From the NCBI GenBank assembly GCA_001534745.1, contig CP013997.1, forward strand, positions 1,054,001-1,118,000: a stretch of 64,000 bases of DNA, in the 5' to 3' direction. Below the pieces are notes generated by a model. That model worked only from the letters and a program-made list of their open reading frames with translations, made no database searches and was not told the origin of the DNA. Every line of letters begins with the position of its first letter. The stretch's first letter is position 1. The position numbers and the translations under genes are program-made. The stretch comes from Pseudomonas monteilii (lineage in GTDB: Bacteria; Pseudomonadota; Gammaproteobacteria; Pseudomonadales; Pseudomonadaceae). Shown here piece after piece: positions 11,739 to 16,182 of the stretch.

Positions 11739-12278
11739 ATGAGTGTCTGGCGCAAGCTGTTGATCCTGTCCTTCCTGCTGCTGGGCGGCTGCCTGGCGAC
11801 GTTCGATGACCCCCTGCCGGGCACCCAGCCCGCACCCAAGGGCTTGCTGGGCCACTGGAGCAGCAAGGACGGCTGGGGCGAACCGGTCGATCTGGTGATC
11901 AGCGCCCTCCCGAACAACACCTACCGGGCGAAGGTCCGCCTGCACGGCAAGCCGGCCCGCAGCTACACCTTCACCGTGTCGCACCATGGCGGGCGCTGGT
12001 ACGCGTCGAGCGTGCAGCCCGACGCCCGTGGGGCCCTGATCGGTGGATTCGAATTGATCGAAAACCGGCAGTTGGTGATCTACACCCTGGACGTCGAACC
12101 GTTGCGCCAGGCGATCGCCCATCGCGAGCTGTCCGGGCGCATCACCACCGTCGGGCAGGACGACGTCCCCGGTGTCCACATCGACAGCCCGGCCGAACGC
12201 GTCGTGGCCTACCTCGACGACCCGGCCAATTCGGACGTGTTCGTCGAAACCGCACGGCTGCAGCGCGTCGCTCGCTGA
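11739..12278 (+). CDS. Putative lipoprotein, 179 aa
   Basis: Lipoprotein of unknown function. The signal peptide MSVWRKLLILSFLLLGGC ends in a clear lipobox (LGGC, Cys18) with Ala19 after it, favouring outer-membrane sorting. The mature part is predicted beta-rich with two-strand patterns such as NTYRAKVRLHGKPARSYTFT and repeated Trp/Tyr, but no named domain is recognised. The start is chosen at 11739 because it has AAGGAG upstream and gives a proper signal peptide; the open frame runs further 5' without support. It precedes the DUF1704 gene by 23 bases, so the two are probably cotranscribed. Confidence 0.85.
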   Translation: MSVWRKLLILSFLLLGGCLATFDDPLPGTQPAPKGLLGHWSSKDGWGEPVDLVISALPNNTYRAKVRLHGKPARSYTFTVSHHGGRWYASSVQPDARGALIGGFELIENRQLVIYTLDVEPLRQAIAHRELSGRITTVGQDDVPGVHIDSPAERVVAYLDDPANSDVFVETARLQRVAR

Positions 12279-12301
12279 CGCCCCAACCCAAGGAGTACAG
12301 G

Positions 12302-13579
12302 GTGGACGATTACCAACAGACCATACGCGCGCTGTCCGACCGCATCGTGGCCGCGCAGACGCCGATCCGCGTGCTCGATGCGGTGAAATGGGACGAGAAC
12401 ATCCGTCAAGGCTTCATCGAGGGCAAGGGCCGCGAACCGCCGGCGATCGACAAGGCGTACTACCAGTCGCGACCGCTGTCGTTCGACGCCAGCGCGGTCA
12501 AGGCCGAGTTCCAGAGCATCGAGCGTGACGTGACCCGTCGGCTCGGCCAGTTCAGCCCGGTCGGGCAGATCATGCGACGGATGTGTCGCGAGTACCGCAT
12601 GGTGGTGCGCATGCTCGAGGCACGGGGCACCGAGGACTTCGGGCTGATCTCCCAGGAGCTGTACGGTGCTGCCTCCGATGCGTTCCACGCTGGCGACCCG
12701 ACGCTCGCCGACCTGGGCCTGATGCTCTCGGACTACCTGAACAACATCGACGGCCGTGGTGACCTGAAGGACGAGCCGAAGAACCTGACCGCCACCCAGG
12801 CCGTGGAGATCCTGCAAACCCGCTTGAACAAGGTGTTCGGCGAGACCGAAGGCACCATCCGTGTGTTCGAGTCCGATGGCATCGTCGCCGACGCCGCGGC
12901 GGGCGCCGACTACATCAAGGTGCGTGCCGACGCCATGTTCAACACCCGCGACGTGCGCGCGCTCGAGGTGCACGAAGGCCTGGTCCACGTCGGCACCACC
13001 TTGAATGGCCTGAACCAGCCCATCTGCACGTTCCTGTCGAAAGGGCCGCCATCGTCGACCGTGACCCAGGAAGGGCTGGCCATCCTCATGGAGGTCATTG
13101 CTTTCGCCTCCTACCCCAGTCGCCTGCGCAAGCTGACCAACCGCACGCGCGCCATCCACATGGTGGAGGAGGGCGCCGACTTCATGCAGGTGTATGGCTT
13201 CTTCCGTGACCAGGGCTTCGAGATGGCGGACAGCTACGGCAATGCCAGCCGCGTGTTCCGGGGTTCGGTGCCCGATGGCTTGCCGTTCACCAAAGACCTG
13301 TCCTACCTCAAGGGCTTCATCATGGTCTACAACTACATCCAGCTCGCCGTGCGCAAGGGCAAGCTGGAGCAGATCCCCTTGCTGTTCTGTGGCAAGACTA
13401 CCCTGGAAGACATGCGCACCTTGCGCCAGCTGGTCGACGAGGGCCTGGTGGAGCCGCCGCGCTACCTGCCGGAGCAGTTCCGTGACCTGAACGCGCTGTC
13501 GGCCTGGATGTGCTTCTCCAACTTCCTCAACCACCTGAGCCTCGACCGCATTGAAGCCGACTACTCGAACATTCTCTAG
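12302..13579 (+). CDS. DUF1704 / QEGLA-motif protein, probable HExxxH metallopeptidase
   Basis: A 425-residue cytoplasmic protein, no signal peptide, annotated in many pseudomonads as a 'flavohemoglobin expression-modulating QEGLA motif protein'. The family (DUF1704) also contains the human tubulin tyrosine carboxypeptidase MATCAP/KIAA0895L, a zinc enzyme with an HExxxH motif and a downstream Glu ligand. Here HEGLVH lies at 224-229 (His224, Glu225, His229) and TQEGLA at 255-260 (Glu257), matching that layout. Peptidase activity is therefore inferred; no substrate is known. The start is GTG with AAGGAG upstream. Its 3' end overlaps the next gene by 29 bases. Confidence 0.9.
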   Translation: MDDYQQTIRALSDRIVAAQTPIRVLDAVKWDENIRQGFIEGKGREPPAIDKAYYQSRPLSFDASAVKAEFQSIERDVTRRLGQFSPVGQIMRRMCREYRMVVRMLEARGTEDFGLISQELYGAASDAFHAGDPTLADLGLMLSDYLNNIDGRGDLKDEPKNLTATQAVEILQTRLNKVFGETEGTIRVFESDGIVADAAAGADYIKVRADAMFNTRDVRALEVHEGLVHVGTTLNGLNQPICTFLSKGPPSSTVTQEGLAILMEVIAFASYPSRLRKLTNRTRAIHMVEEGADFMQVYGFFRDQGFEMADSYGNASRVFRGSVPDGLPFTKDLSYLKGFIMVYNYIQLAVRKGKLEQIPLLFCGKTTLEDMRTLRQLVDEGLVEPPRYLPEQFRDLNALSAWMCFSNFLNHLSLDRIEADYSNIL

Positions 13580-14489
13580 GCGCGCCCGCCATTGGCTGCT
13601 GGGGCTGACGCTGGTGGGCCTCGGCGGATGCAGCAGCCTGCTGTTCTATCCCGAGCCCGGTCAACCGTTCACCCCCGCCTACGCGAAACTGGCGTTTCGC
13701 GAGCTGACCTTGACGGCCGAGGATGGCACACGCCTGCACGGCTGGTGGCTGCCGGCCAAGCCCGGTGTACCGGTCAAGGGGACGGTGCTGCACTTGCATG
13801 GCAACGGCGGCAACATGGCCTGGCACCTGGGAGGGAGTTATTGGCTGCCCGAGCAGGGCTACCAGGTGTTGATGATCGACTACCGGGGGTATGGCCTGTC
13901 CCAGGGCACGCCACGCTTGCCCGAGGTGTACCAGGACCTGCAGGCGGCCATGGACTGGCTGGGGCAGGCGCCGGAGGTGAAAGGCAAACCGCTGGTATTG
14001 CTGGGCCAGAGCCTGGGTGGGGCGCTGGCGATCCATTACCTGGCCGCACACCCCGAGCAGGCCGGACGCTTCACCGCCCTGGTGTTCGACAGCGTGCCGG
14101 CCAGCTACCGGCAGGTGGGGCAGTATGCGTTGAGCACGTCCTGGCTGACCTGGCCGCTGCAGGTGCCGCTGTCCTGGGCGGTGCCCGACGGCGATAGCCC
14201 GATCCGCTCCATGGGGCGTCTGCAAGGGCCACCCAAGCTGTTCTTCCACAGTCTCGACGATACCCTGGTGCCGTTGGACAACGGATTGTCGCTGTACAAG
14301 CAAGCCCCGCCGCCGCGCGTCTTCCAACTGACCCGGGGACCTCACGTGCAGACGTTCGCCGATCCGACCTGGCGGGAGGTGATGCTGCGGTTTCTCGATG
14401 ATCCGAAACGGTTCGATGGACTGCGTCGGTTGGGCGAGGTGCCGAACTACCCTGAAAAGCCGCAGGGGGCGAAAGGGGCGGGGGATTGA
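13551..14489 (+). CDS. Lipid-anchored alpha/beta hydrolase
   Basis: Serine hydrolase of the BEM46/YfhR-like alpha/beta class, substrate unknown. The N-terminal segment RARHWLLGLTLVGLGGC gives a lipobox with Cys27, followed by SSLLFYPEP. The oxyanion region is LHLHGNGGNMAWHLG, the nucleophile is Ser154 in LLGQSLGGALA, the acid probably Asp in FHSLDDTLVP, and the base His in RGPHVQTF. The chosen start is TTG at 13551, inside the DUF1704 gene, since no ATG precedes the lipobox in this frame; the exact start is uncertain. Overlap and orientation suggest one transcript with the preceding two genes. Confidence 0.85.
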   Translation: MKPTTRTFSRRARHWLLGLTLVGLGGCSSLLFYPEPGQPFTPAYAKLAFRELTLTAEDGTRLHGWWLPAKPGVPVKGTVLHLHGNGGNMAWHLGGSYWLPEQGYQVLMIDYRGYGLSQGTPRLPEVYQDLQAAMDWLGQAPEVKGKPLVLLGQSLGGALAIHYLAAHPEQAGRFTALVFDSVPASYRQVGQYALSTSWLTWPLQVPLSWAVPDGDSPIRSMGRLQGPPKLFFHSLDDTLVPLDNGLSLYKQAPPPRVFQLTRGPHVQTFADPTWREVMLRFLDDPKRFDGLRRLGEVPNYPEKPQGAKGAGD

Positions 14490-14943: not shown

Positions 14944-15720
14944 TCAGTGAGTGCGCGGCGCGACAGGCTGGTTGTCGTTGGAAATGGTCACTTCCACGCG
15001 ACGGTTCTGGGCACGGCCCGAGTTGCTGGAATTGTCGGCAACCGGGTATTCCTTGCCATAACCCTGCGACACGATGCGCGCTGGATCGACACCGGCGCGG
15101 ACCAGGGCCATGCGCACGCTGCCAGCACGACGCTCGGACAGGCTCTGGTTGTACGAAGCCGAGCCGACGCTGTCGGTGTAGCCTTCCACGATCACCTTGC
15201 GCTCTGGGTTTTCCTGAAGGAACTGAGCCAGCTTGGTGATGTTCGGGAAGGCGGTGCTCTTGAGCTCGGCCTTGTTGAAGTCGAACAGCACGTCACCGAA
15301 GGTCACCAGGGTGCCACGGTCGGTCTGCTTGGCGTTCAGGCTGTCCTGCAGCTTCTTGATCTCGGCGTCGCGGGCATCCAGGCGAGCCTGGGCGCGCTGG
15401 GCAGCGGCGTTCTTCAGGTTGCCTTCGGCAGTGCGCAGGGCGATGGTTTCCTTGGCGACTTCGACGCGCTGGTTGGCCAGGTAGGCCAGCTGATCGACTT
15501 TCTTGTCGTCGTCACGGTCGAGGTAGGCCTTGTCGGCCTTGTTCAGCCAGTCCTGCGCATCCTTGGTTTCCAGGGCAGCGATCTTGCTGGCCTGCGGATC
15601 GCTCTGCAGCGTCGAGAAGTTGCTGCGCGCCGCTTCCAGGTTAGGGTTGGGCTGGTGGGAGCAGGCAGCCAGACCGACGCTCAGGGCCAGCAGGGCGGGG
15701 ATCATGACATGTTTACGCAT
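14944..15720 (-). CDS. OmpA-family lipoprotein with N-terminal DUF4398-like helical region
   Basis: Outer-membrane lipoprotein that probably tethers the membrane to peptidoglycan. The 258 residues show a signal peptide with lipobox ending GLAAC (Cys20), a helical, charged segment at about 30-135 resembling DUF4398, and a C-terminal OmpA domain with FDFNKAELKSTA, VEGYTDSVGSASYNQSLSERRA and GYGKEYPVADNSSNSGRAQNRR. These last motifs contain the diaminopimelate-binding Asp and Arg of the family. It lies 48 bases downstream of the DUF4398 lipoprotein gene on the same strand and is probably cotranscribed with it. Confidence 0.92.
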   Translation of the reverse strand: MRKHVMIPALLALSVGLAACSHQPNPNLEAARSNFSTLQSDPQASKIAALETKDAQDWLNKADKAYLDRDDDKKVDQLAYLANQRVEVAKETIALRTAEGNLKNAAAQRAQARLDARDAEIKKLQDSLNAKQTDRGTLVTFGDVLFDFNKAELKSTAFPNITKLAQFLQENPERKVIVEGYTDSVGSASYNQSLSERRAGSVRMALVRAGVDPARIVSQGYGKEYPVADNSSNSGRAQNRRVEVTISNDNQPVAPRTH

Positions 15721-15768
15721 AATGGTTCATCCTTTGATCGATAACGAGTGCATGGGTCGGCGACAGGC

Positions 15769-16182
15769 TTATTTAGCGCTGCGCATACCTTCCTCACGCA
15801 GTTCCTCTACGCCCTGACGAGCATCCTGGACGGCTTTCTGGGCCTTGGCAGCCTGCGCCTTGCGCTCGGCGACACGGGCGTCCCACTCAGCCTGCTCGGC
15901 CAGGCGCTTGGCCTCTTCGTATTTCTTGTCGTGCATGGCGATTTCCGCCTTCTTGAACTTGTCCTGCGCCGATTTCATCTCGACAGCGGCAAATTCGGTG
16001 CCCCCGGCGCTCACAGCGGAATTGACCGCCGATTGAGCCACGGCATATTGCTCGGTAGGCGGGTTGCCAGCGCAACCGGCCAGGACCAGGCTGCTGCCCA
16101 GGGCCAGCGCGGCCAGCTTGAGCCCGCGCAGGTGAGTGGACGGGGTTTTTGCGATGCGGGTCTTCATGGTGGTCAACTCCAT
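15769..16182 (-). CDS. DUF4398 lipoprotein, 137 aa
   Basis: Small lipoprotein of unknown role. The N-terminal segment LKLAALALGSSLVLAGC gives a lipobox with Cys37, and the rest is almost entirely helical and Ala/Lys/Glu rich (KYEEAKRLAEQAEWDARVAE), typical of DUF4398. The start at 16182 has AGGAG seven bases upstream; a second ATG five codons in (16167) also has a GGAG. It precedes the OmpA-type gene, whose helical N-terminal region it resembles, so the pair may work on the same periplasmic structure. Confidence 0.88.
   Translation of the reverse strand: MELTTMKTRIAKTPSTHLRGLKLAALALGSSLVLAGCAGNPPTEQYAVAQSAVNSAVSAGGTEFAAVEMKSAQDKFKKAEIAMHDKKYEEAKRLAEQAEWDARVAERKAQAAKAQKAVQDARQGVEELREEGMRSAK

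Follow-up and report, generated by a model that had tools for sequence, protein, structure and literature searches.

The locus and its product

The window analysed here is a stretch of 64,000 nucleotides from Pseudomonas monteilii (contig CP013997.1, positions 1,054,001 to 1,118,000), and its position numbers are used throughout. We identify in it a gene for a predicted metallocarboxypeptidase of the MATCAP family, to which the human tubulin-trimming enzyme MATCAP belongs, and find that genomes carrying this short form of the family almost always also carry RimK, the ligase that adds glutamates to the C-terminus of ribosomal protein S6 (RpsF). We tentatively propose that the enzyme trims RimK-made glutamate tails. 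The reading frame comprises 425 codons and a stop from a GTG start codon, and no in-frame ATG, GTG or TTG lies between the upstream stop (11807) and position 12302. The gene and its features are as follows.

12302..13579, + strand: gene for a 425-aa predicted metallocarboxypeptidase of the MATCAP family (PF08014 / TIGR02421, DUF1704), short subfamily, assigned from the open reading frame, profile matches, alignment and predicted fold
12290..12295, + strand: AAGGAG, a likely ribosome-binding site by its sequence, 6 nt before the GTG start
12971..12988, + strand: HEGLVH codons (residues 224-229), with predicted metal ligands H224 and H229 and predicted catalytic base E225, from alignments
13064..13081, + strand: TQEGLA codons (residues 255-260), with predicted third metal ligand E257 (13070-13072), from alignments
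13250..13261, + strand: codons of residues 317-320, with R317 and R320 invariant in alignments and Arg also in aligned human MATCAP; possibly carboxylate-binding
13292..13306, + strand: codons of residues 331-335, with K331, D332 and Y335 invariant and likewise aligned in human MATCAP; possibly substrate-binding

In a profile search the protein matches PF08014, whose Pfam name is now MATCAP, with an E-value of 4.8e-134 (447 bits against a cut-off of 27), and the NCBIfam QEGLA motif protein model TIGR02421 with 8.2e-138, above the curated cut-off. It is the only family copy in its genome (gene at genome position 1066302). Of the 80 loci kept, those from two strains named Pseudomonas entomophila hold its nearest named relatives, at 99% identity. 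A preliminary description of this DNA had placed the two motifs at these residues and assigned the protein to the MATCAP family; the profile E-values, far beyond chance, the predicted fold and a profile match to human MATCAP bear out both statements. Its remark that the usual label, flavohemoglobin expression modulator, does not suggest a peptidase holds insofar as the label describes a regulatory effect, but the Pfam name already states the family link. The family reading is thus right and already implicit in Pfam, and the link to RimK is the new part.

The full label of TIGR02421, "flavohemoglobin expression-modulating QEGLA motif protein", covers the same family and, across Pseudomonas loci, the same gene neighbourhood; it names a regulatory effect and not a chemistry. 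It appears to go back to P. aeruginosa, in which PA3697 has a genetic effect on fhp. We take PA3697 to be the P. aeruginosa ortholog of this gene, with which the gene order beside lptF is consistent. Regulation of fhp by PA3697 is mentioned in a passage of PMC8070244, citing Koskenkorva et al. 2008, and lptF is given as PA3692 in a passage of PMC3855792.

Conserved active site and relation to human MATCAP

H224, E225, H229 and E257 are invariant in all 23 sequences of one alignment (the query included, the others 20-85% identical to it) and in all 75 rows of a second (28-92% identity). The first alignment also holds Q256, G258, A260, T232, N235, Q239, E264, R274, R281, R317, R320, G321, K331, D332 and Y335 invariant in 23/23. 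Among the matches listed, pooled from the best 120 rows of each of three protein searches, 354/354 proteins carry HExxxH followed after 26 residues by QEGLA (352) or QEGMA (2), a count in which the most distant relatives are under-sampled because only those best rows entered it. The five invariant basic residues (R274, R281, R317, R320 and K331) would suit an acidic substrate. Judged by its sequence, this copy has every tested feature of an active enzyme; we regard the protein as very probably a metalloenzyme and probably a carboxypeptidase.

A single-sequence search of the Protein Data Bank (PDB) with the Pseudomonas protein returned no match, and a profile of 23 family members found human MATCAP (7z5g, E 5.8e-14; 7z6s, E 2.7e-12). 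The bacterial HExxVH aligns on human HEIGTH (HQIGTH in 7z6s) and QEGLA on EEGLA, the aligned motif residues being 280, 281, 285 and 316 in the chain numbering of 7z6s. E225 and E257 thereby pair with E281 and E316 of TMCP1 (MATCAP), as expected from the match to the MATCAP metal site that the preliminary description had drawn. Passages of PMC10499314 report that E281A and E316A strongly reduce TMCP1 activity and that recombinant E281A is inactive. The description had further suggested superposing a predicted structure on MATCAP: the model aligns over 297 residues at about 20% identity, shares the MATCAP fold and puts HEGLVH within helix 215-237 and E257 within helix 252-266, a result at the level of helix placement. 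It had also called the site a zinc site. All four metal and catalytic residues are kept, but the metal need not be zinc, because Mn or Co activates TMCP1, which Zn mostly inhibits, and each of the three reactivates TMCP2 (passages of PMC10499314).

The human relatives MATCAP/TMCP1 (KIAA0895L; PDB 7z5g, 7z6s) and TMCP2 (KIAA0895), about 20% identical to the bacterial protein and matched in the PDB via profiles only, act on tubulin, whereas the bacterial protein has no known tubulin partner. M32 metallocarboxypeptidases (3hq2, 3dwc, 1k9x) share 9-12% identity with it; the M32 motif is HExxH, and the bacterial protein has HExxxH instead. The CCP tubulin deglutamylases belong to M14, another metallopeptidase class; their removal of chain glutamates, as described in passages of the literature, is analogous to the reaction proposed below. 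The TMCP paper likens HExxxH to the M49 motif (passage of PMC10499314). No M49 structure was recognised among the 50 fold matches listed, which leaves an M49 fold possible.

Co-occurrence and linkage with RimK

A genome was scored as RimK-positive when the RimK of the window's genome (30S ribosomal protein S6--L-glutamate ligase, NF007764) had a match in it at E <= 1e-50. Three overlapping genome samples, drawn at phylum, class and order level, together hold 98 distinct genomes with a short and 36 with a long family copy. The split into short, long and intermediate copies rests on the PF08014 score and the length of the open frame, with a partial check by similarity, and the long subfamily served as an internal control. 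RimK is present in 97/98 distinct genomes with a short copy (82 outside the gene's own family) and in 12/36 with a long one. In what follows, genomes, loci and families are denoted by our own G, L and f numbers where they must be told apart.

The association recurs at each level. In the phylum sample RimK accompanies 16/16 short and 2/6 long copies, and the genome with a decayed short copy, G240 (L127), has no RimK. The class sample (n=369) gives 36/37 for short, 5/16 for long and 166/369 overall (Fisher 7e-13), with G612, which has two ambiguous copies and no RimK, counted as long, and G360, which has a decayed copy and RimK, set apart; recounting G612 as short gives 36/38 (Fisher 8e-12). For the order sample (n=322) the figures are 61/61 for short, 5/14 for long and 226/322 overall (Fisher 2e-11; 8e-9 without the gene's own family), five intermediate genomes (G800, G937, G952, G311 and G867), all with RimK (5/5), being set apart. 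The sole short genome without RimK, G634, is 78% complete, and its family mates G417 and G535 have RimK. Counted by family, 23/24 agree (binomial 8e-7 against a genus-level rate of 132/272). In each of the families f11, f105 and f124, one genome has both genes and one has neither, and in f25 one genome has both and one has a decayed copy and no RimK.

Physical linkage is occasional. rimK lies within about 3 kb in four of the 53 loci with a short copy (one of them decayed), spread over three families. These 53 include all short loci of the class sample and, from the order sample, only G308 and earlier-examined genomes. At L154 and L155, of the same family, the short copy is convergent with rimK and rimB; at L156 both rim genes stand near it with a CorA gene between; and L148 has rimK only, about 2.8 kb away. 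Under a rough chance model of six neighbours in 2,500 genes, linkage in 4/53 has P ~9e-6.

Gene neighbourhood and distribution

The genes around the MATCAP-family gene are as follows.

11739..12278, + strand: gene for a 179-aa predicted lipoprotein without a Pfam family, ending 23 bp upstream; a conserved but fast-evolving Pseudomonas neighbour
13551..14489, + strand: alpha/beta-hydrolase frame with a lipoprotein-like signal, its mechanically called TTG start falling within the 3'-terminal part of the MATCAP-family gene; a conserved downstream neighbour in Pseudomonas
14944-16182, - strand: gene for an LptF-type OmpA-like lipoprotein and a related small gene

Of 84 Pseudomonas-type loci (the 80 kept plus L110, L128, L129 and L135), 83 show the hydrolase and 76 the small lipoprotein, and the complete nine-gene order from prfB to ppc is seen in 57, the others often being cut by contig ends. 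Median identities are 96.8% for lysS (78 loci), 77.6% for the hydrolase (80), 54.3% for the lipoprotein (73) and 91.5% for this gene (80), the last biased upward because the loci were selected by it. The lipoprotein and the hydrolase were considered as operon partners on account of these counts and rejected: the hydrolase and lysS have no match in the 31 short loci of the class sample.

The family is present in 59/59 same-genus genomes, in 9/36 others of the order, in 23/249 genomes phylum-wide and in 0/14 named control genomes. Five same-genus genomes, G263, G250, G296, G269 and G293 (L149-L153), hold a second copy nearer to the L113 type (42-45% identity). Two records named Pantoea sp. (Cy-639 and Ap-967; L032 and L033) encode, like Pseudomonas records, a 92% identical protein and are probably misnamed. 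A family member also lies on a 4.9-Mb Aeromonas caviae "plasmid" (NZ_AP026896.1, L134) that, from its size, looks like the chromosome. A phage origin was rejected: the sole match in 50,697 phage records is the UNVERIFIED record OQ572403.1 ("Pseudomonas phage Y1", L135). Because it shows lysS and LptF as well as the lipoprotein, this gene (84%) and the hydrolase, all ordered as on the chromosome, that record probably contains host DNA.

The long subfamily has a context of its own. Its members, of about 630-700 aa, are extended by an additional N-terminal region, and Sinorhizobium medicae (L132) is among their sources. An ATP-grasp gene adjoins the long copy in 11 of 12 loci (two of the loci from G093 and three from G113), namely L119, L120, L122-L126, L132, L144, L145 and L147, and these clusters mostly include an N-formylglutamate amidohydrolase (FGase) gene or domain. 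The three ATP-grasp genes that were scanned all belong to the glutathione-synthetase-like NF009110 type, and the remainder are their tblastn homologs. The FGase occurs at 9/12 long loci, as a separate, not always adjacent gene in five and apparently fused in four (weakly in L145). The twelfth locus, L121, has an AstE/AspA deacylase instead of the ATP-grasp gene, and L146, long-like without the N-terminal region, has no ATP-grasp gene. The ATP-grasp/FGase cluster is found at 0/53 short loci and the window's genome has no FGase match; as context of this gene the cluster was rejected, since it was found with the long subfamily only.

Proposed function and alternatives

We propose, as a candidate function that we find credible but still short of probable, that the enzyme is a carboxypeptidase trimming RimK-made glutamate tails on S6, or free polyglutamate. 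Its basis is the family, the conserved active-site residues, the predicted fold, the co-occurrence with RimK and the occasional rimK linkage; we infer catalysis, the carboxypeptidase mode, a cytosolic location and a RimK product as substrate. The protein would be a cytosolic MATCAP/TMCP-family metallocarboxypeptidase, its metal held by H224, H229 and E257, with E225 acting as general base. The ATP-grasp ligase RimK adds C-terminal glutamates to RpsF or polymerises them into free poly-alpha-glutamate, and the MATCAP-family enzyme would remove C-terminal alpha-linked glutamates from these products. Passages of PMC12239564 and PMC11957791 describe RimK as extending the RpsF C-terminus with glutamates and as synthesising poly-alpha-glutamate, and RimB as cutting such tails; a passage of PMC11957791 puts the minimum for RimB at six Glu in a row, or at five where the encoded residue is the first of them. 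RimB would therefore leave short tails, and the MATCAP-family enzyme could complement it by taking these down to the encoded S6 end. The two would share a product, although RimB is a retropepsin-like aspartic endoprotease needing five to six Glu and unrelated in sequence to the MATCAP family; rimB neighbours the short gene in 3 loci. The genome's own S6 ends in SDNADE and so shares the terminal DNADE of the RpsF that was studied, and the word "carboxypeptidase" does not occur in the main text of PMC11957791. Removal of polyglutamate chains is reported for the human TMCP1 and TMCP2 as well as for a homolog from Tetrahymena, and TMCP2 favours Glu over Asp when it acts on the beta-tubulin tail (passages of PMC10499314).

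Several observations weigh against this function. RimK does not need the short subfamily, because 130 of the 166 RimK genomes in the class sample have no short copy; RimK-positive family mates of carriers lack it too (f5 G122, f133 G611, f204 G650, f242 G682), and E. coli has RimK without PF08014. No rim gene lies in the stretch examined at 49/53 short loci, and in the window's genome rimB-rimK are about 860 kb from the gene (rimK at G000:C1:207530-208432). The co-occurrence statistics account for kinship by family collapsing only, and the family-level test used a genus-level background rate. Profiles of the short subfamily match human MATCAP with E-values of 8.8e-4 (75 sequences) and 1.9e-6 (12 sequences), and a long-subfamily profile does so more strongly (3.5e-11, 8 sequences), so that, by profile E-values, the long subfamily appears to be the closer one to the human enzymes. 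Passages of PMC10499314 describe TMCP1 as the weaker deglutamylase, without effect on TTLL13-made chains, its knockdown as bringing no rise in polyglutamylation, and both TMCP1 and TMCP2 as failing on alpha-tubulin ending -EEEY. Finally, RimB is already the known eraser of RimK tails, and the cited P. aeruginosa phenotype is fhp expression, with no known S6 link.

The fold and catalytic residues would also fit a carboxypeptidase that trims the C-terminus of a different cytosolic protein, such as a regulator with an effect on fhp; the association with RimK would then stem from common lineages or a common lifestyle. The co-regulation of fhp by PA3697 in P. aeruginosa, as cited in a passage of PMC8070244, fits such a substrate, as do the 49 short loci without a rim gene beside them and the presence of the family in all 59 same-genus genomes searched. 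We nevertheless consider it unlikely, if a serious contender: the agreement in 23/24 families and the four paired contrasts would have to be due to lifestyle alone, and long copies from the same samples show no such tracking of RimK. The ATP-grasp gene at 11/12 and the FGase gene or domain at 9/12 long loci suggest an enzyme, either peptidase or amidohydrolase, whose substrates would be small glutamyl peptides or osmolytes and not protein tails. Expression in Photobacterium damselae RM-71 at 1% versus 3% NaCl (888 genes up) also fits: passages of PMC10308900 report two genes of chromosome II with consecutive locus tags, a "GshB" gene up 38.4-fold and, after it, the QEGLA-family gene up 27.5-fold. 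RimK, on chromosome I, is up 52-fold in that table; the QEGLA gene there probably belongs to the long subfamily, so these data support a family-RimK link loosely. That ATP-grasp context likewise belongs to the long subfamily and is absent from all 53 short loci, and the genome's lack of an FGase match points the same way, which makes a small-peptide enzyme improbable here; it overlaps with RimK-tail trimming, because free poly-alpha-glutamate from RimK would be a small-peptide substrate too. The NCBIfam name and the fhp effect cited for PA3697 would agree with a protein that regulates flavohemoglobin expression without catalysis and has simply retained the metallopeptidase fold. We think this very improbable, since pseudoenzymes usually lose metal or catalytic residues and all four are kept in 354/354 homologs among the matches listed.

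The titles, abstract beginnings and passages of the literature found mention neither a link of DUF1704/QEGLA proteins to RimK nor peptidase activity of a bacterial member; Iyer et al. 2009 (ATP-grasp amidoligases) and Landskron et al. 2022 (MATCAP) lie outside that scope and may note the bacterial context. The preliminary description had expected that, with no tubulin present, the substrate would be a different protein C-terminus. The RimK association supplies a concrete candidate, which can be assayed with published substrates (RpsF-Glu tails).

If RimK-tail trimming is its function, an uninformatively named gene found in 59/59 same-genus genomes would turn out to encode an enzyme so far lacking from the RimK-based tuning of ribosomes. 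More speculatively, the family may form one side of a bacterial writer/eraser cycle for C-terminal polyglutamate, with a MATCAP-family eraser opposing an ATP-grasp writer (RimK for the short subfamily, the neighbouring glutathione-synthetase-like ATP-grasp for the long), and the eukaryotic TTLL/TMCP tubulin cycle may reuse this older bacterial pairing. The trimmers of human tubulin tails would then be tied to bacterial relatives that oppose ATP-grasp ligases.
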